From Dehalococcoidia bacterium (GTDB lineage Bacteria > Chloroflexota > Dehalococcoidia > GIF9 > AB-539-J10), in the NCBI GenBank assembly GCA_003552125.1, contig PUON01000001.1, positions 1-38,293 of the forward strand: a stretch of DNA of 38,293 bases. The letters run 5' to 3'. Within the stretch, counting starts at the first letter, position 1. Every line of letters starts with the position of its first letter. The position numbers and the translations under genes were made by a program. Positions 3,454 through 13,103 of the stretch are shown here, in pieces. The notes under the pieces are model-generated. The model did not search any database. It had not been told where the DNA came from and saw only the letters and a list, made by a program, of their open reading frames with translations.

Positions 3454-3476
3454 GTGCCCGAGACAATAATTGAATA

Positions 3477-3563
3477 CTCTCAGGGGAGCCGCAAGGCTGA
3501 GAGTCCTCGACGCGAGGAGACCCTCAAGACCTGATCTCGGTAATGCGAGCGTAGGGAAGATCC
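3477..3563 (+). promoter_or_regulatory. TPP riboswitch (THI element)
   Basis: The conserved TPP aptamer blocks are present in order: GGGGAGCC with a GCAA-capped stem to GGCTGAGAG (3483-3503), an optional P3a hairpin TCCTC/GAGGA (3504-3517), then GACCC, the core ACCTGAT (3529-3535), the P5 arm CTCGGTAATGCGAG (3536-3549) and CGTAGGGAAG (3550-3559). Family knowledge: it binds thiamine pyrophosphate and represses thiamine synthesis or uptake genes. P1 looks short (about 3 bp by eye). It precedes the PurM-like and thiN genes on the same strand. Confidence 0.95.
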
Positions 3564-3573
3564 TCACCGCGTC

Positions 3574-3600
3574 CGGAACCTGAATTGTCAGGTTCTGTTT
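3574..3600 (+). terminator. expression-platform terminator of the TPP riboswitch
   Basis: GAACCTGA (3576-3583) pairs perfectly with TCAGGTTC (3588-3595) around a 4-nt ATTG loop; a G-U and a C-G pair extend the stem to 3574/3597, and TTT follows. The U-run is short. The hairpin sits 45 nt before the start codon and clear of its ribosome binding site, so it fits transcriptional rather than translational control. Its 3' arm can also pair with the aptamer core (see findings). Confidence 0.65.
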
Positions 3601-3644
3601 CAAGATGCCTCTGCATGCTCCTCGTGGGAATCGAAGGAGGCTTC

Positions 3645-4667
3645 ATGCTGCCACAGATTGGCAAAATCGACCGTGCGAGTTTCGACAGGAGTATCTTCTC
3701 GCGACTGGGTCACCCCGACGCCAGCGTCCTCATAGGGCCGCAGCATGGCGTTGACGCTGCCGCCATCGAGCTGCCTGACGGCAAGGTTATGGTTGTGGCA
3801 GAGGACCCGACGTTCGGCATGCCCGTAATAATGCCATATTTCGGCTGGGCCATCGTCCATATCTGCGCCAGCGACGTTGCGGTGCTTGGCGTAAGACCAC
3901 GCTACATGACTATCTGCCTCATGTTGCCTCCCGGCACGGAGGAAAGCGTGCTGGATGCTATCTGGAAGCAGGTACATGAGGAGTGCGACAAACTGGAAAT
4001 CGCCATCGTCGGAGGACATACCGGAATCTATCCCGGTATCGGTTACCCGCTCAACGGCGGCTGTACCATGATGGGTATCGGAGACAAGTCTCAACTCACG
4101 CCGCCATCCAACGCCAGACCAGGTGACCGGATCATCATCACCAAGGGACCCGCAGTGCAGACCACCGGAACACTTGCGTTGCAGGCGGAATCCGCCCTCG
4201 CCGCCGCAATGAGTCCTGATCTGCTGCAGAAGGCTAAGTCCCGGTTCCACGAGATGACGGTGGTGGAAGATGCCCTGGTCGCCGCTCCCTACGCCAACGC
4301 GATGCACGATGCAACTGAGGGGGGATTGCTCAACGGCGTGTATGAAGTTGCCGCAGCTTCGCGCACAGGAGTAACCATTTACGAGGATAGGATCGCGGTG
4401 CCGGAAGAGACTCGCGCCATTTGCGACTACTTCAACATTGATCCTCTGATCTCCATAAGCGAAGGTACACTGGTAATCGCCGCGCCACCTGACGAAGCTG
4501 AGGGACTGATAGGTACGCTCCAGGAACACGATATTCCCGCCTGGGACATCGGAGAGATAACCTCCGAAGAGAGGACAATCATCGATTCGAAGGGTAACCC
4601 CAGACCCCTGAGTCCGGTGGCGGTCGACCCGTTCTGGAGCGCCTATTTCAGCACACTGGAGGAATAG
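3645..4667 (+). CDS. PurM/HypE-superfamily protein in the thiamine operon (possible ThiL-like kinase)
   Basis: The 340-residue product belongs to the PurM/AIR-synthase superfamily (PurM, PurL, HypE, SelD, ThiL), ATP-dependent enzymes of the cytosol. Visible landmarks are an early Asp (GVDAAAIE, 35-42), EDP at 53-55, ASDVAVLG at 75-82, the VGGHTG loop at 122-127, and the PGDRIIITKGPA strand that opens the C-terminal domain. The order looks most like HypE-related proteins, but the HypE C-terminal Cys tail is absent: it ends in FSTLEE. Its place behind a TPP riboswitch and 5 nt before thiN argues for thiamine synthesis, perhaps thiamine-phosphate kinase (ThiL) activity, which is inference. The ATG at 3645 has AAGGAGG just upstream; the frame is open to 3585 but runs into the terminator hairpin. 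Confidence 0.8.
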   Translation: MLPQIGKIDRASFDRSIFSRLGHPDASVLIGPQHGVDAAAIELPDGKVMVVAEDPTFGMPVIMPYFGWAIVHICASDVAVLGVRPRYMTICLMLPPGTEESVLDAIWKQVHEECDKLEIAIVGGHTGIYPGIGYPLNGGCTMMGIGDKSQLTPPSNARPGDRIIITKGPAVQTTGTLALQAESALAAAMSPDLLQKAKSRFHEMTVVEDALVAAPYANAMHDATEGGLLNGVYEVAAASRTGVTIYEDRIAVPEETRAICDYFNIDPLISISEGTLVIAAPPDEAEGLIGTLQEHDIPAWDIGEITSEERTIIDSKGNPRPLSPVAVDPFWSAYFSTLEE

Positions 4668-4672
4668 TATCC

Positions 4673-5251
4673 ATGGAAGAGAAGGATCTGGTACTGGGAA
4701 ACCTGGTTCGCGCGATGAATACCCTTAGCAATTGTCCCGAGTTCGCATGCCTTGTGCCTGAAGTCAGGGTCAACCTGGTCTACGCTTTGCCGGACCCCCA
4801 TTCCCCTCAAGACGTCGCAGCCATCGAGGGACGGATTACGGCGGTGAGAGGAGTCCCGCACGCGTCGGGTATGCCCGATTTCGGTGTCTCGGACCACATG
4901 GCACGGCTCATCATACAGGTACGGCAGACACAGCCGGAGATCCGGGCGGGCATCAACTTCAAGTGTAATGCCGGGATAATCGAGGTCGTGAAGGCCTACT
5001 GTGCAGAGAAGGGCTACTCGTTCGGTGATATCGACCGCACCACGGAGCCTGCGGAGGTAGCCGGAGAGGACGGCAGCTCGATGCCATGGAAGATAGCGCA
5101 ACTCATCGACAGGTTTGGTGCGGTACCACACCTGTTCTACGAAGGTGACGGCTGGGGCAAGGAACCATTGTTCGTAGCTATAGGCCGGAACGCAGTAGAG
5201 GTGGCCGAAATCGCATCGGACATCGCCCGGCGACATGCCCGGTCCGGATAA
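4673..5251 (+). CDS. thiN: ThiN, thiamine-phosphate synthase (stand-alone domain)
   Basis: This 192-residue protein matches the ThiN domain, best known as the C-terminal part of archaeal and Thermotoga ThiDN, which joins HMP pyrophosphate with thiazole phosphate to give thiamine phosphate in place of ThiE. Recognisable blocks are VRVNLVYALPDP (27-38), AAIEGRITAVRG followed by PDFGVSDHMARLI, and a C-terminal GDGWGKEPLFVAIG. Here it is free-standing, with no ThiD domain fused. It lies 5 nt after the PurM-like gene and shares its TPP riboswitch, supporting a role in thiamine synthesis. GGAGG lies 10 nt before the ATG. No thiD, thiM or thiC is in the window. Confidence 0.85.
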   Translation: MEEKDLVLGNLVRAMNTLSNCPEFACLVPEVRVNLVYALPDPHSPQDVAAIEGRITAVRGVPHASGMPDFGVSDHMARLIIQVRQTQPEIRAGINFKCNAGIIEVVKAYCAEKGYSFGDIDRTTEPAEVAGEDGSSMPWKIAQLIDRFGAVPHLFYEGDGWGKEPLFVAIGRNAVEVAEIASDIARRHARSG

Positions 5252-5667
5252 CCAGACGCCATTCCTACACGTGAATCTCAACGCATTAAGGAATGTCGAG
5301 GTGCCTGGAATACTACGTCCAGAAGAGCGACAGCCGGGCACCTGGACATCTATTGCATGCACAGCCAAAGAGGCTGCATCATCCGGCGCCACACACTCTC
5401 CGCAGCATCAGACAAGCCGCTGGTGATGACGGAACCTGATGCAGGTCTATATCGAGGAGGCTCCGTTAAGCCTCCAGCACGGGAGCAGCTTCAAGTGTTT
5501 CTGATGACCTTGGTACTGCTTGGCATGCACGGGCAGGGACCGCATGACACATGAGACGGATGCCTGCGAGTATTGACCAATCGACTGGCCCGTGACAAGA
5601 TGTGCCGCACAGGTCAGCATGCCGTGGTCCCGTTGCCGGATTGTTTCCGCGGTTCCAAAGGAGGTCA
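5252..5667 (+). other. 416-nt gene-free region with nested inverted repeats
   Basis: No convincing ORF occupies this gap. Three inverted repeats are visible: AGGTGCCTGG (5299-5308) with CCGGGCACCT (5334-5343), a 10-bp stem including one G-U pair; GCATCAG (5405-5411) with CTGATGC (5436-5442); and GGAGGCT (5456-5462) with AGCCTCC (5469-5475). None is followed by a U-run. A possible promoter lies near the right end. The region may be a 3' structure of the thiN transcript, a long leader of the next gene or a structured RNA. Confidence 0.5.
5573..5601 (+). promoter_or_regulatory. possible promoter before the FAD-membrane gene
   Basis: TTGACC (5573-5578), a 17-nt spacer and CAAGAT (5596-5601) would place a start near 5608, 60 nt before the GTG. 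The -10 matches the consensus only at three positions, so this is weak. Confidence 0.3.
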
Positions 5668-7776
5668 GTGACGGAGTCTCGCGACAAGATCAACGTCGGG
5701 TCACATCGGTCCAGTTCAATGCTGATCGGTGTATTGTTGCTCGCACTCGGGTTTGCCCCTTGGATCGCGTACTGGGTGCTTGTGGCCCTCCCGCAGGACG
5801 GCGCAATTGTCGTGGCGCTGGGCATCTCGTGCGCGTTGATGGCACAACAGATATGGTCCAGATCCTACAGGCTGCTGGATGTTGCCACTTTCGTGTATTT
5901 CGCCATCGCCGCGTTCATTACCTTCCCAATCGGTTCCCCACTGTTCATAATCCATGTGGCTCCGTTGAGCTTCGGATTCCTTTTCGCTATGGCCGTCTTC
6001 TCGTTCGTAATACGTCAACCATTTACGGGGCATACGGCACGATATGGGTACCCTCCCGAGTACTGGAACAACCCCGACTTCATCGCTTTGCATCGTACTA
6101 TCACTGCAGCGTGGGCGCTTTTGTTCCTGTTGTGCGGGATGATACTCACGTTTACGGATCTTTCCACGAGCTCCATCGTGCCCATGACACTGATTGCGCT
6201 GGGAATCGTTTTCACCGTCGTCTTCCAGGTCAAGGGGCCTGCCTTTCTTGTCAAGCAGCGCTACAAGCCATACGAGTGGCACGTTCCACTGACACCATCC
6301 ACGGGAAAACAGGAGCGCGAGTACGATGTGCTAGTTGTGGGAGCGGGAATAGGAGGACTAACCTGCGCCGCATTACTGGCACAGCGTGGCTACAAGGTCC
6401 TGGTGATGGAACAGCAGGCTCAGGGCGGAGGCTATTGCCGTTCGCTGGAGAGGGGAGACTACGCATTCACCACCGGGGTGGCGGGAATTACCGGTCTGCG
6501 GGAAGACGGCCCGGTGAAGCGCCTGCTCGCTCAACTCAACATCCCCACCGATGGCCGTTTCGTACCCCACAACCGAAGATACGTATTGAAGGGTCAGAGC
6601 ATTGATATCCAACCAGGGGTCCAGAATACAATCGCGACACTGGCTGACATCTTTCCCGAAGAACGAGAACGAATCGGTGCCTTCTACCAGGACTCTTCAG
6701 AGGCCTTTTGCCAGCTTCACGAGTACAGCAGGCAATTCGGAGCGCCACTGCCCGAACACCTCATAGTCCGTCTGATGAGGGACACGGCAGCAGCCAGTCT
6801 ACCACGTGAATTCGCAAGACTGTATGACTGGTTGGGTAAGACATTCGAGCAGAAACTGGACGAATACTTTGACAGTGAGAACCTTAAGGCGCTGGTGGCA
6901 GCACCATCAGGACAGAACGGTACCACGCCCCGGGTGACGCCCGGACTGAGAGCACTGATAGGATGCGTGGGACCGCAACTTGAGGGGCTCTACTACCCGG
7001 TGGCCGGACCAGGCGGCTTTGCAAACGCCCTTGTTACTGCGGTTGAATCATATGGCGGCACGGTCATGCTCAATTCCCGCGCGGACCGCATACTCACAGA
7101 CAGAAGGCAGGTCCGCGGTGTCCGGTCCGGTGAGGAGATCTATCAGGCGCGTGTGGTGGTAGCGAATGTGAACCCGCGCACCTGTGTACTGCAGCTCGTT
7201 GAGGCCAGTGAAGTCGGCGGGGTGTACATCGACTACATTAAGAGCCTGCCGATGTCGCGCTCCGCCTTCATCGTATACGCCGGCGTCGATGATGATCTTT
7301 CCTCATATCCCTCCCTGATACAGAATCTCGATGGCGACTTCAGCATTGTCATTAACTCGAACGTTGATCCTCGCTTCGCTCCCAAAGGACGTTCCAGCAT
7401 TACGCTGATAGCGCCGATGGGATACCGTGACTTCCCGCCGAGAGATGAGCGCGACTACGATGACAGGAAACGCCAGTTTGCCGCGCTATTGATCAGAAAA
7501 GCGGAGGAGGTAATCCCGGGATTGAGCGGGAAGATCTCGACTTTGGATGCGGCAACGCCGAGAACCCTCGAAACCTACACATCGATTCCTGAAGGGGCAC
7601 TCTATGGCTTCGACCAGTCAGTAAGCACGCGCCGCCCGCATTTCCGAGCGCCGATCAAGGGTCTGTACTTCGCGGGTGCGTCGACATTCCCGGGCGCCGG
7701 GGTGGAATCAGTCGTCATATCTGGTACCATCTGCGCCAACGATATTGACGGATGGACTCAGGCGAACCAAGAATGA
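5668..7776 (+). CDS. membrane-anchored CrtI-like FAD oxidoreductase (TM domain fused to phytoene-desaturase fold)
   Basis: The 702-residue protein has two parts. Residues 18-190 hold about six hydrophobic segments forming an integral membrane domain. From about residue 215 a complete FAD oxidoreductase of the carotenoid desaturase/isomerase type follows: DVLVVGAGIGGLTCAALLAQRGYKVLVME is a GxGxxG dinucleotide-binding motif, with a GGGYCRS segment after it, and the C-terminus has GLYFAGASTFPGAGVES, the FAD-binding end motif of CrtI-like enzymes. The substrate is unknown; no carotenoid genes are nearby. The GTG at 5668 is chosen for AAAGGAGG 4-8 nt upstream; the frame is open to 5602 without an RBS. 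The stop overlaps the next ATG (ATGA), so the two proteins are probably made together. The fusion is unusual for this fold. Confidence 0.8.
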   Translation: MTESRDKINVGSHRSSSMLIGVLLLALGFAPWIAYWVLVALPQDGAIVVALGISCALMAQQIWSRSYRLLDVATFVYFAIAAFITFPIGSPLFIIHVAPLSFGFLFAMAVFSFVIRQPFTGHTARYGYPPEYWNNPDFIALHRTITAAWALLFLLCGMILTFTDLSTSSIVPMTLIALGIVFTVVFQVKGPAFLVKQRYKPYEWHVPLTPSTGKQEREYDVLVVGAGIGGLTCAALLAQRGYKVLVMEQQAQGGGYCRSLERGDYAFTTGVAGITGLREDGPVKRLLAQLNIPTDGRFVPHNRRYVLKGQSIDIQPGVQNTIATLADIFPEERERIGAFYQDSSEAFCQLHEYSRQFGAPLPEHLIVRLMRDTAAASLPREFARLYDWLGKTFEQKLDEYFDSENLKALVAAPSGQNGTTPRVTPGLRALIGCVGPQLEGLYYPVAGPGGFANALVTAVESYGGTVMLNSRADRILTDRRQVRGVRSGEEIYQARVVVANVNPRTCVLQLVEASEVGGVYIDYIKSLPMSRSAFIVYAGVDDDLSSYPSLIQNLDGDFSIVINSNVDPRFAPKGRSSITLIAPMGYRDFPPRDERDYDDRKRQFAALLIRKAEEVIPGLSGKISTLDAATPRTLETYTSIPEGALYGFDQSVSTRRPHFRAPIKGLYFAGASTFPGAGVESVVISGTICANDIDGWTQANQE

Positions 7777-10426: not shown

Positions 10427-11680
10427 TCAGGAGCCGATGACATCCCGGCAGATCTTGAGGAACTGTGCGTTGGTGAGGAGCGTGTGCTGCACCCGTCCCT
10501 GCGATTTCACCCGGTCGGTGATCTCCTTGATCTGATCCTCCGTGGCCTTGATACCGTGAACATCCAGATAGTATTCGATTGTCGCGGCACCACTGTTCTT
10601 TCCCAGAACGAGATGATACGGCTCCATTCCGACGACTTCAGGTACGAACGCCTGGATTGTAACGTCGAATCCCGCATCCTTGAACTTTCGATGCAGGTCG
10701 GCGGCAATACCAGTCTCCAGCTTGTTCAAATCACGCCCAACGATGGGCTTGTTCCCTGCCAGCGCCCGCCTCGAGATATTCTCGACGGTGACAGATGCGT
10801 TCATGATGCCATCCAGTCGGATACCGGTCTTGATGCCTGCGAGCAACTCGAGCATCATAACCACCTCTTCAGTGGCCACATTCCCGGTCCTATCGCCGAG
10901 TCCGTTATACGCAGTGTGGATGACGCTCGCACCATTCGCGACCGCTTCAAGCACACCTGCGTTCGCCAGTCCGAATTCGTTGTGTGTGTGGAACTCGAGG
11001 GGAACGTCCGGAACCCACTCTTTCAGCTTACGAAACAGATACCCTACCGCACGCGGTGAAGCCACACCGACAGTGTCGACGGCAACGATACCATCAAGCT
11101 TCGTCTCACGCGCTAGCGTAGAGTAAATCTCCTTCACGTAATCCCAGTCATCACCGCGAGTGAGATCCCAGCCCATGAAAATCGTCTTAAGATTGTTCTC
11201 ATTGGCGTACTTTGTGGTGGTGATCAATCGATCGAGCACTTCTTCCTTGCACAGCCCATACGCTGCATCACAGGCGTAAGGATTCATGATGTGCTCGAGA
11301 ATTGCCGTATTCACACCCGATTCTATCGCAAGGTCGATGTCCTTCTTGATAGTCCTCACAAACGCAACCATCTCGGAGTTGAGATTGCGCTTGACAATGC
11401 GCTTCATGCCCTCAAGGATCTCCGGAGAGGCTGGAGGCATGCCGATTTCGAGGCGGTGAATGCCGATGTCGGCCAACGCCTCCGCTATCGCAACCCTTTC
11501 CTCCGGAGAGAAGGCAACTCCGACGGTCTGCTCACCGTCACGGAGAGTGACATCATGGATCTGTACCGTCTTCCCTCGAAAGTCGGAGATGACCTCCGGC
11601 TCAAAATTGAGTGGTGACACCCACCACTTGCCGTTCACGAAGTGTTCGGTGCCTTTAAGTCGCTCAACGTCGTAACCCAT
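10427..11680 (-). CDS. HMGL-family carboligase, second of a tandem pair (isopropylmalate/homocitrate synthase-like)
   Basis: The 417-residue protein belongs to the HMGL-like TIM-barrel family (isopropylmalate, homocitrate, citramalate and Re-citrate synthases), which condense acetyl-CoA with a 2-oxoacid. Signatures are HDVTLRDGEQ (42-51), the metal motif HTHN (231-234) and NGLGDRTGN (259-267). An N-terminal extension (YDVERL, GKWW.SPLN.E) precedes the barrel, and a C-terminal helical region after about 330 stands in for the LeuA-type regulatory domain, which I cannot see at usual length. The substrate is unknown. AAGGAGG 6 nt before the ATG at 11680 fixes the start; the frame is open to 11737. 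A putative internal promoter lies at 11718-11723. Its paralogue follows upstream (11768-13030). Confidence 0.8.
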   Translation of the reverse strand: MGYDVERLKGTEHFVNGKWWVSPLNFEPEVISDFRGKTVQIHDVTLRDGEQTVGVAFSPEERVAIAEALADIGIHRLEIGMPPASPEILEGMKRIVKRNLNSEMVAFVRTIKKDIDLAIESGVNTAILEHIMNPYACDAAYGLCKEEVLDRLITTTKYANENNLKTIFMGWDLTRGDDWDYVKEIYSTLARETKLDGIVAVDTVGVASPRAVGYLFRKLKEWVPDVPLEFHTHNEFGLANAGVLEAVANGASVIHTAYNGLGDRTGNVATEEVVMMLELLAGIKTGIRLDGIMNASVTVENISRRALAGNKPIVGRDLNKLETGIAADLHRKFKDAGFDVTIQAFVPEVVGMEPYHLVLGKNSGAATIEYYLDVHGIKATEDQIKEITDRVKSQGRVQHTLLTNAQFLKICRDVIGS

Positions 11681-11717
11681 ATCGTTCCTCCTTGAAATGG
11701 CCATCGTGCCGACGCAT

Positions 11718-11723
11718 ATTATA
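11718..11723 (-). promoter_or_regulatory. possible -10 element before the second HMGL gene
   Basis: On the minus strand the intergenic sequence reads CGGGTATAATATG, with a perfect TATAAT; a start near 11711 would leave a 30-nt leader. No -35 consensus is seen at 17 nt. The same CGGGTATAAT stands before otsAB. Confidence 0.45.
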
Positions 11724-11767
11724 CCCGCAATCGTCACCGATGTGGGGACGCAGGCCAGCTCCAGGCC

Positions 11768-13030
11768 TCAGCGAGACTCCCAGTCGCCCACAACCTTCCT
11801 GCAGATAGCAATGAATTGCGCGTCAGTCAGAAGGCTATGCTGAACTCGACCGTGCCACTTGACCTGGTCGGTTATCTCTTTGACCTGTTCCGAACTTGCC
11901 TGAATGCCGTAGCAGTCTAGGAAGTACTCTACCGTGGCCGAGCCGCTGTTCTTACCAAGGACCAGCCGGATCGGATCCTGCCCTACAAGCGAGGGATGAA
12001 ACGCCTGCATCGTGATGTCGAAAGATGCTTCAGAGAACTTCCGGTGCAGATCCGCATCGATCCCGGTCTCAAGGTCAAACAGACCACGACCAACGATGGG
12101 CTTGTTAGGTGGCACAACTCGCCTGCTGATGTTTTCAACGAGAAGCGATACGTGCATGAGACCGCTGAGATCGATGCCGGTGGAAACCCCGTGGGCCAGT
12201 TCAAGTATCACTGCTATCTCTTCCGTGGCAGCGTTTCCTGTGCGGTCGCCCAAACCATTGAACGCCGTGTGGACGACGCTGCATCCTGCAGCTACCGCCT
12301 CGATGACACCTGCGTTTGCCATGCACATGTCATTATGTGTGTGGAACTCCAGCGGAATGTCAGGTAGTATCGAGGATAGTTTTCGAAACAGAAAGCCGAC
12401 AGCGCGCGGATTGGCAACGCCGAATGTGTCGACAACTGCAATCCCATCAGGATCAGCGTGCGCCCTCAGTGCCGTGTAGATATCCTCGATGAAGTCCCAG
12501 TCATCGCCCCTGGTCAGATCCCAGCCGAGGAAGATCGTCTCGAGGCCTCTCTCTTTCGCGTACAGGACGCCCCTGACTACCCGTTCCTTGACTTTCTCGC
12601 GATCCAACCCGTAGCCACTCTCGCAGGCGTACGGATTCATTATGTGCTGCAGTACCACTCGACTGAGGCCGCAATCAACGACCATGTCCACGTCAGACGC
12701 CAAAGTACGTGCAAATCCATAGAGCCCGGCATTCAATCCAAGAGCAGCCACCCGCCGCATGCCGTCCCGGACCTCTTCAGACACGGGAGGAAGTCCCACT
12801 TCGAGTCGCGGAATGCGGATCTCATCGAGAGCGAGTGCGATCTCGACGCGTTCCTCAGGAGAGTACGCCACACCAACGGTCTGTTCCCCATCGCGAAGCG
12901 TGACGTCATGAAACTGAACAGAACGTCCTGCGAATGGGTGGGCAACTACCTGTTCGTAGTTGAAGGGGGACATCCACCACTTGCCTGCCCTATAGTTCGG
13001 CTGCCTGTTCAATCTCTCAATATCATACAT
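11768..13030 (-). CDS. HMGL-family carboligase, first of a tandem pair
   Basis: This 420-residue protein is a close paralogue of the next gene, alike from the N-terminal YDIERLN..GKWWMSP.NYE extension to the C-terminal VKEITDQVK..GRVQHSLLTDAQF segment. It keeps HDVTLRDGEQ, FHTHND and NGLGDRTGN, so both copies appear catalytically competent. Differences cluster outside these motifs, for example GVANPRAVGFLFRKL followed by different loop residues, which may mean different 2-oxoacid substrates or a heteromeric enzyme; both are inference. AGGTGG lies 6 nt before the ATG at 13030; an ATG two codons earlier is too close to it. It lies 108 nt after the TreT-like gene with a 9-bp hairpin between. Confidence 0.8.
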   Translation of the reverse strand: MYDIERLNRQPNYRAGKWWMSPFNYEQVVAHPFAGRSVQFHDVTLRDGEQTVGVAYSPEERVEIALALDEIRIPRLEVGLPPVSEEVRDGMRRVAALGLNAGLYGFARTLASDVDMVVDCGLSRVVLQHIMNPYACESGYGLDREKVKERVVRGVLYAKERGLETIFLGWDLTRGDDWDFIEDIYTALRAHADPDGIAVVDTFGVANPRAVGFLFRKLSSILPDIPLEFHTHNDMCMANAGVIEAVAAGCSVVHTAFNGLGDRTGNAATEEIAVILELAHGVSTGIDLSGLMHVSLLVENISRRVVPPNKPIVGRGLFDLETGIDADLHRKFSEASFDITMQAFHPSLVGQDPIRLVLGKNSGSATVEYFLDCYGIQASSEQVKEITDQVKWHGRVQHSLLTDAQFIAICRKVVGDWESR

Positions 13031-13074
13031 GTGCATCCACCTGCAGAGAGCACGGCGACCTTCTTCCCTGCCGC

Positions 13075-13103
13075 GCGTCGCGCTCACTCACGAAGCGCGA
13101 CGC
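13075..13103 (-). other. intercistronic hairpin
   Basis: GCGTCGCGC (13075-13083) and GCGCGACGC (13095-13103) form a perfect 9-bp stem with an 11-nt loop between the TreT-like and first HMGL genes on the minus strand. No U-run follows, so an mRNA-stability or attenuation structure is more likely than a terminator. Confidence 0.55.

Follow-up and report, generated by a model that had tools for sequence, protein, structure and literature searches.

In the PurM superfamily, PurM, PurL and HypE phosphorylate a carbonyl oxygen, after which a nucleophile attacks or dehydration follows. The substrate of ThiL is thiamine phosphate (TMP). On the thiazole side of thiamine synthesis, fungal Thi6 is a TMP synthase fused to a thiazole kinase. 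Thiophosphate synthesis has been proposed for a SelD-like family of Crenarchaea (PMC4210487). We analyzed a stretch of 38,293 nucleotides from a Dehalococcoidia bacterium (the window), in which a gene for a protein of the HypE/ThiL superfamily lies between a TPP riboswitch and thiN; we refer to this protein and its subfamily as HypEL. Taken singly, the riboswitch, ThiN and the superfamily of HypEL are of known kinds. In the literature that was searched, we found no description of the HypEL subfamily, of HypEL-ThiN fusions or of an alternation between HypEL and Thi4, nor any paper linking a HypE-like protein with ThiN.

The arrangement of the locus is as the sequence-only reading had described it, with a HypE-like PurM-superfamily gene downstream of a TPP riboswitch (Rfam RF00059) and only 5 nt between its stop codon and the start of thiN (Table 1). 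The ATG is preferred as the HypEL start; the TTG at 3585 in the list of open reading frames falls inside the leader. This leader (3472-3660) folds with a z-score of -2.42 against shuffles, and the hairpin that follows the aptamer is a candidate expression platform, judging by its predicted fold. ThiN matches PF10120 with 162.5 bits over model positions 2-163 of 165, above gathering, and is therefore a full-length, ordinary ThiN; its phmmer matches include 2pb9 (3e-29) and 2php (4e-24). Since the domain fills residues 11-181 of 192, there is no room for the helix-turn-helix (HTH) of a ThiR-type repressor. By family, the protein is probably a TMP synthase that would join HMP-PP and thiazole phosphate to form TMP. 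Further 3' of ThiN, at 5602-7776 (+), lies a 724-aa open reading frame; its N-terminal part is hydrophobic, and a part resembling FAD oxidoreductases of the phytoene desaturase type comes after it. The close relative L088 also has a relative of this frame 3' of ThiN. The window also contains two similar tandem genes of the homocitrate/isopropylmalate-synthase type, at 10427-11737 and 11768-13087 (-), both with ...HDVTLRDGEQTVGVA.

Table 1. Thiamine-related features of the window
Feature	Position	Strand	Basis
TPP riboswitch aptamer (THI element)	3472..3575	+	Rfam RF00059, full model 1-105, 56.0 bits (gathering 54.3)
Terminator-like hairpin, 10 bp, weak U tract, 3' of aptamer	3574..3597	+	Predicted fold
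RBS AAGGAGG of HypEL gene	3634..3640	+	Direct sequence reading
HypEL1, HypE-like PurM-superfamily protein, 340 aa	3645..4667	+	Pfam AIRS + AIRS_C, alignment, AlphaFold2, Foldseek
ThiN-type thiamine-phosphate synthase, 192 aa; neither HTH nor ThiD attached to the stand-alone domain	4673..5251	+	PF10120

HypEL belongs to the PurM superfamily, scoring above the Pfam gathering thresholds for both AIRS (60.5 bits) and AIRS_C (90.5 bits). Among NCBIfam models, hypE (TIGR02124) is top by a narrow margin with 99.9 bits and thiL (TIGR01379) gives 98.3 bits; both scores are below the respective cut-offs of 251.6 and 184.15, indicating that HypEL is a member of neither family and roughly equidistant from them by these models. 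The selD model (TIGR00476) gives 76.6 bits, below its cut-off of 125. Structure prediction, which the sequence-only reading had called for, returned a HypE-like fold: the AlphaFold2 model has a pLDDT of 95.3, and its best Foldseek match is HypE (3vys, TMq 0.81), with SelD at up to 0.74 and ThiL at 0.65-0.69. By hhalign, HypEL and ThiL align over 313 columns with a probability of 99.9 and with the metal/ATP Asp positions matched. The earlier description of the protein as looking more HypE-like is right in that HypE is closest by fold; the NCBIfam scores are nearly equal.

The C-terminus of HypEL, ...VDPFWSAYFSTLEE, lacks the PRIC tail and its Cys, bearing out the earlier remark that the HypE Cys tail is missing (the tail reads VDPFW..., with no Cys). 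In an alignment of 45 diverse HypELs, G6-K7, D37, D54, D77, GHT124-126, K167-G168, MHDATE220-225 and the C-terminal DPFW328-331 are invariant in 45/45. The Trp of this C-terminal motif might make a stacking contact with a ring, as may an aromatic residue close to the C-terminus of ThiL. No invariant Cys was found among the 45 sequences, and thus no SelD-type catalytic N-terminal Cys/Sec, indicating that a persulfide is not borne by HypEL itself. A tree of 61 rows places HypEL in one clade, separate from ThiL and HypE; HypEL (100/100) and ThiL (99/83) are each set off by a supported branch. HypEL is a monophyletic subfamily without the tail Cys, with an invariant C-terminal DPFW and with a HypE-like fold. 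We rejected two assignments for it: true HypE, because HypEL has no Cys tail and a real HypE (433.6 bits) is encoded in the same genome, and the SelD-like thiophosphate family of PMC4210487, because HypEL has no catalytic Cys. The nearest group in the tree consists of GKLP-type PurM-like paralogues (L069, L071, L073, L074, L082, L085). Frequent neighbors of these genes are a MoxR/Mg-chelatase-like ATPase gene and a gene for another large, conserved protein.

The genome that contains the window (2.09 Mb assembly, 94% complete) encodes a canonical ThiL (contig C135, 269.8 bits, cut-off 184.15), a true HypE with the PRIC tail within a hyp cluster (contig C9), PurM (contig C132), ThiC (contig C10, 11593-12858) and a ThiD2-ThiE fusion (contig C96, 121.7 bits), ThiD2 being the HMP-P kinase. 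No TPP riboswitch was recognized on this ThiC gene, unlike the ThiC genes of most relatives in the class. A second HypEL, 42% identical to HypEL1, is located on contig C25 directly 3' of the assembly's only other TPP riboswitch (74.4 bits), and its counterpart in the close relative L269 is intact and monocistronic behind a riboswitch of its own. Since both TPP riboswitches of the genome are directly upstream of HypEL genes, all recognized ones control HypEL. Our survey of thiazole genes covered ThiG, Thi4 and ThiM and counted ThiG only above 300 bits, as what passes the Pfam cut-off is mostly short pieces of barrel proteins unrelated to it. None of the three genes was found in this 94% complete genome, nor in five Dehalogenimonas-type genomes, which are complete, or in three of the Dehalococcoides type. 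ThiC is present in every one of these genomes. ThiD was likewise not found in the genome or in nearly all class genomes tested. The thiazole source is a gap in the thiamine pathway of this genome, and HypEL is a candidate to fill this otherwise missing step.

Scanning 84,980 species genomes, we found at least 590 relatives of HypEL, the closest named ones being from Dehalococcoidia. Among the best 80 of these loci, BLAST places ThiN adjacent to HypEL in 44, and it is fused to HypEL in one more, which is an upper-end estimate because the 80 are the best-scoring relatives; with about 45/80 adjacent or fused, the pairing is not due to chance. It spans bacteria and archaea, and the gene order is HypEL-ThiN in Chloroflexota and mostly ThiN-HypEL in Methanothrix, Methanoregula and other archaea. 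ThiN-HypEL fusion proteins are encoded at Methanomassiliicoccus, Jordarchaeia and Archaeoglobus loci, and Methanofrustulum has the opposite fusion order, HypEL-ThiN. The riboswitch-HypEL arrangement is present in several bacterial phyla. Dehalogenimonas-type genomes carry riboswitch-HypEL-ThiE, ThiE being a TMP synthase unrelated to ThiN, and Bacillota have HypEL-ThiD behind a TPP riboswitch; in one haloarchaeon, HypEL adjoins ThiDN. Because its partner can be ThiN or ThiE, HypEL is tied to the TMP-forming step whatever enzyme performs it.

HypEL also alternates with the known thiazole enzymes. Among the tested class genomes with ThiC, Thi4 or ThiG is present in 7/7 that lack HypEL versus 6/19 that have it (p = 0.005), a comparison that leaves the window's own genome uncounted and in which the genomes are not independent and those with HypEL had been selected for the profile. 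A TPP riboswitch precedes HypEL in 17/28 genomes without Thi4/ThiG versus 2/15 with them (p = 0.004), and the same contrast by genus is 12/21 versus 2/15 (p = 0.014). Presence and absence in these comparisons rest partly on metagenome-assembled genomes (MAGs). When we mapped TPP riboswitches in 55 genomes, the recurrent pattern was one on ThiC and one on a thiazole gene, namely Thi4 or ThiG if present and otherwise HypEL. One genome (G095) has riboswitch-Thi4-ThiN, with a Thi4 of 345 bits and a ThiN 63% identical to that of the window, and it has in addition a HypEL-ThiN pair without a riboswitch. The G095 riboswitch-Thi4-ThiN operon is the window operon with Thi4 in place of HypEL. Similarly, two genomes of one genus share a cysteine operon (Rrf2, CysK, CysE, ABC transporter) that contains HypEL in the first genome but Thi4 in the second; the first has another Thi4 elsewhere. 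Some genomes carry HypEL and Thi4 together, and a few carry HypEL and ThiM.

Sulfur genes form a further part of the HypEL neighborhood. NifS, IscU, CysE, CysK, OAH sulfhydrylase or NIL is encoded within 4 open reading frames of HypEL at 35/101 loci, whereas no sulfur genes were found near the nearest paralogues, the GKLP-type genes of the class (0/21 loci; p = 0.0004). Dehalococcoides sp. JdFR-56 combines both contexts in the order TPP aptamer-cysE-NIL-nifS-HypEL-thiN-mnmA. Its aptamer (L092, 1810-1975) scores 48.6 bits, below Rfam gathering, but it contains the core motif, and a hairpin resembling a terminator follows; the serine acetyltransferase gene cysE is apparently under TPP control there. 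An Asgard archaeon has HypEL-ThiN-CysE-CysK, and Thi4 genes of the class occur in similar sulfur clusters. Thi4 homologues of about 250 bits, separate from the ThiC-linked Thi4, are located among CysK, CysE, OAH sulfhydrylase, NifS and ThiF- and MoaD-like genes (L214 12317-16111, L224 2878-11343). At two other loci (L215 5961-8429, L213 7390-9805), Thi4 is followed in one run by two apparent proteins of the homocysteine synthesis type, one of the COG1900/DUF39 kind and one with a NIL domain.

We propose an ATP-dependent role for HypEL in the thiazole branch, either in forming the ring or as a ThiM-like kinase, and put the probability of the two versions together at about 0.58. We infer the reaction from the site of regulation, the operon and fusion partners, the predicted fold and the gene content of the pathway. 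In the ring-forming version, which we hold tentatively, HypEL would help to form the thiazole ring with cysteine-derived sulfur and PurM-type ATP activation of an oxygen. Somewhat more speculatively, it could be the core of a third, ATP-dependent thiazole route that is unrelated to ThiG and Thi4, uses cysteine sulfur in an activation or cyclization step, and would be widespread in anaerobic bacteria and archaea. At low TPP, the riboswitch would permit expression of the operon, and HypEL would make the thiazole half, as thiazole phosphate or its carboxylate, and supply it to the adjacent TMP synthase (ThiN or ThiE), standing in for Thi4 or ThiG in genomes without them. ThiC and ThiD2 would provide the HMP-PP to which ThiN then couples this half, and TPP would be completed by the separate canonical ThiL. 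PurM-type phosphorylation chemistry could close or finish the thiazole ring, and the sulfur neighbors would fit such a reaction. Several observations speak against a role in the thiazole branch: some genomes combine HypEL with Thi4 or, in a few cases, ThiM, HypEL has no invariant Cys, and the HypEL genes retained in Dehalococcoides-type genomes are not preceded by a TPP riboswitch, although no known thiazole enzyme was found in these genomes. D. mccartyi reportedly requires added thiamine, so HypEL alone gives no prototrophy there, and in these genomes it either functions in salvage or has drifted.

Ring formation has its chief competitor in the second version, in which HypEL would phosphorylate ready-made hydroxyethylthiazole for salvage, as a functional analogue of ThiM; we regard this as possible but doubtful. 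It would account for the absence of ThiM from 30/30 class genomes tested (over cut-off in only 5/80 genomes) and for a Bacillota genome (L142) without ThiC, ThiG, Thi4 or ThiM, whose riboswitch-controlled HypEL-ThiD resembles a thiM-thiD salvage operon. Several archaea with HypEL-ThiN also lack ThiC, some thermophilic archaea are among the salvage-only genomes that this version fits, and the ThiN-HypEL fusion would parallel fungal Thi6. However, a hydroxyethylthiazole kinase leaves the sulfur and cysteine genes beside HypEL unexplained, including the one operon with cysE and nifS under a TPP riboswitch, and five HypEL genomes have ThiM as well; the PurM superfamily is not known to phosphorylate alcohols. 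The same sulfur neighbors (NifS, IscU, CysE, CysK and MnmA), together with a T-K loop that we take to be reminiscent of SelD, would suit a SelD-like thiophosphate synthetase that supplies sulfur for thiazole and other products, thiamine being one client of several. The thiophosphate role proposed for the Crenarchaeal SelD-like family (PMC4210487) points the same way, but HypEL, unlike that family and SelD, has no invariant Cys and scores below the selD cut-off (76.6 versus 125 bits), and we consider this role improbable.

The remaining alternatives place HypEL at other kinase steps of the pathway. As an HMP-P kinase replacing ThiD, it would provide HMP-PP to the adjacent ThiN or ThiE by a ThiL-like conversion of a phosphomonoester to a diphosphate. 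The lack of ThiD here and in almost every class genome tested, the resemblance of the ThiN-HypEL fusion to the ThiD-ThiN fusion, and some Methanomicrobiales MAGs without ThiD and ThiD2, two of them with ThiM, are consistent with such a kinase. However, ThiD2 occurs, frequently as a fusion with ThiE, in this genome and in every tested ThiC-containing class genome without ThiD, and HypEL would be redundant beside ThiD in Bacillota and ThiDN in the haloarchaeon. Overall the role is unlikely; the finding of ThiD2-ThiE led us to drop it for this class and to reject HypEL as the filler of a missing ThiD step, which the genome already covers. As for the MAGs themselves (G173, G174, G177, G178; loci L119, L120, L123, L124), they have ThiC, in several copies in three and as one fragment in G177, neither ThiD nor ThiD2 was found in them, and their HMP-P kinase seems missing or divergent. 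We give very little weight to a thiamine kinase converting thiamine to TMP in thiamine importers: its chemistry would be close to that of ThiL and TPP control of HypEL would suit it, but the fusion to a TMP synthase, the positional exchange with Thi4 and the sulfur genes would be left unexplained. Least credible is the divergent thiamine-phosphate kinase suggested by the sequence-only reading, a second ThiL, even though HypEL shares the superfamily with ThiL, aligns with it by hhalign (99.9, with metal/ATP Asp aligned) and is paired with a TMP-making enzyme. The survey for loss of canonical thiL that was to accompany this idea instead found ThiL over cut-off in 41/50 HypEL genomes, and this eliminates TMP kinase as the main function of HypEL; the genome's own ThiL (269.8 bits), the fully supported separate HypEL clade and a fold nearer HypE (0.81) than ThiL (0.65-0.69) argue the same way, and we rejected it. 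A canonical thiL elsewhere in the genome and a HypE-like structure were among the grounds named in advance for abandoning the kinase, and both were found, while the link to thiamine and the broader suggestion of another thiamine step are strongly supported.

A thiazole-branch role for HypEL would matter beyond this locus. A TPP-regulated thiamine pathway with no recognized thiazole source is found in many anaerobes, both bacterial and archaeal, with complete Dehalogenimonas-type genomes among them, and HypEL is a concrete, testable candidate for this gap, as ring-former or as kinase. If the proposal is correct, predictions of vitamin B1 requirement would change, HypE-resembling genes in hundreds of genomes would not serve hydrogenase maturation, and the PurM superfamily would gain a new reaction.

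Among known systems, HypEL is most similar in structure to HypE, sharing the two-domain fold of the superfamily (3vys, TMq 0.81), but it has DPFW instead of the Cys tail and MHDATE instead of RDPTR, scores 99.9 bits against a cut-off of 251.6, and neighbors a riboswitch and ThiN, whereas the hyp genes are on contig C9. With ThiL it shares the superfamily, the thiamine context and the ATP/metal Asp positions, but it forms a separate clade, falls below the cut-off and co-exists with canonical ThiL. SelD and the Crenarchaeal SelD-like family (PMC4210487) resemble it in superfamily and sulfur-gene neighbors and differ in the catalytic Cys/Sec that HypEL lacks. Thi4 and ThiG occupy the same slot, as seen in the G095 operon and in the alternation within one cysteine operon, yet they are unrelated proteins, Thi4 with an FAD-type Rossmann fold and ThiG a barrel, and compared with ThiG and with Thi4, a sulfide-dependent ADT synthase, HypEL would need a different, ATP-dependent chemistry. 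Like ThiM and fungal Thi6, HypEL would be a thiazole-side enzyme adjacent or fused to a TMP synthase, but ThiM is a ribokinase-fold kinase with no homology to HypEL. Finally, as in ThiDN and stand-alone ThiN proteins, the ThiN domain here is an ordinary one (162.5 bits), and what sets this system apart is that its partner is HypEL rather than ThiD.
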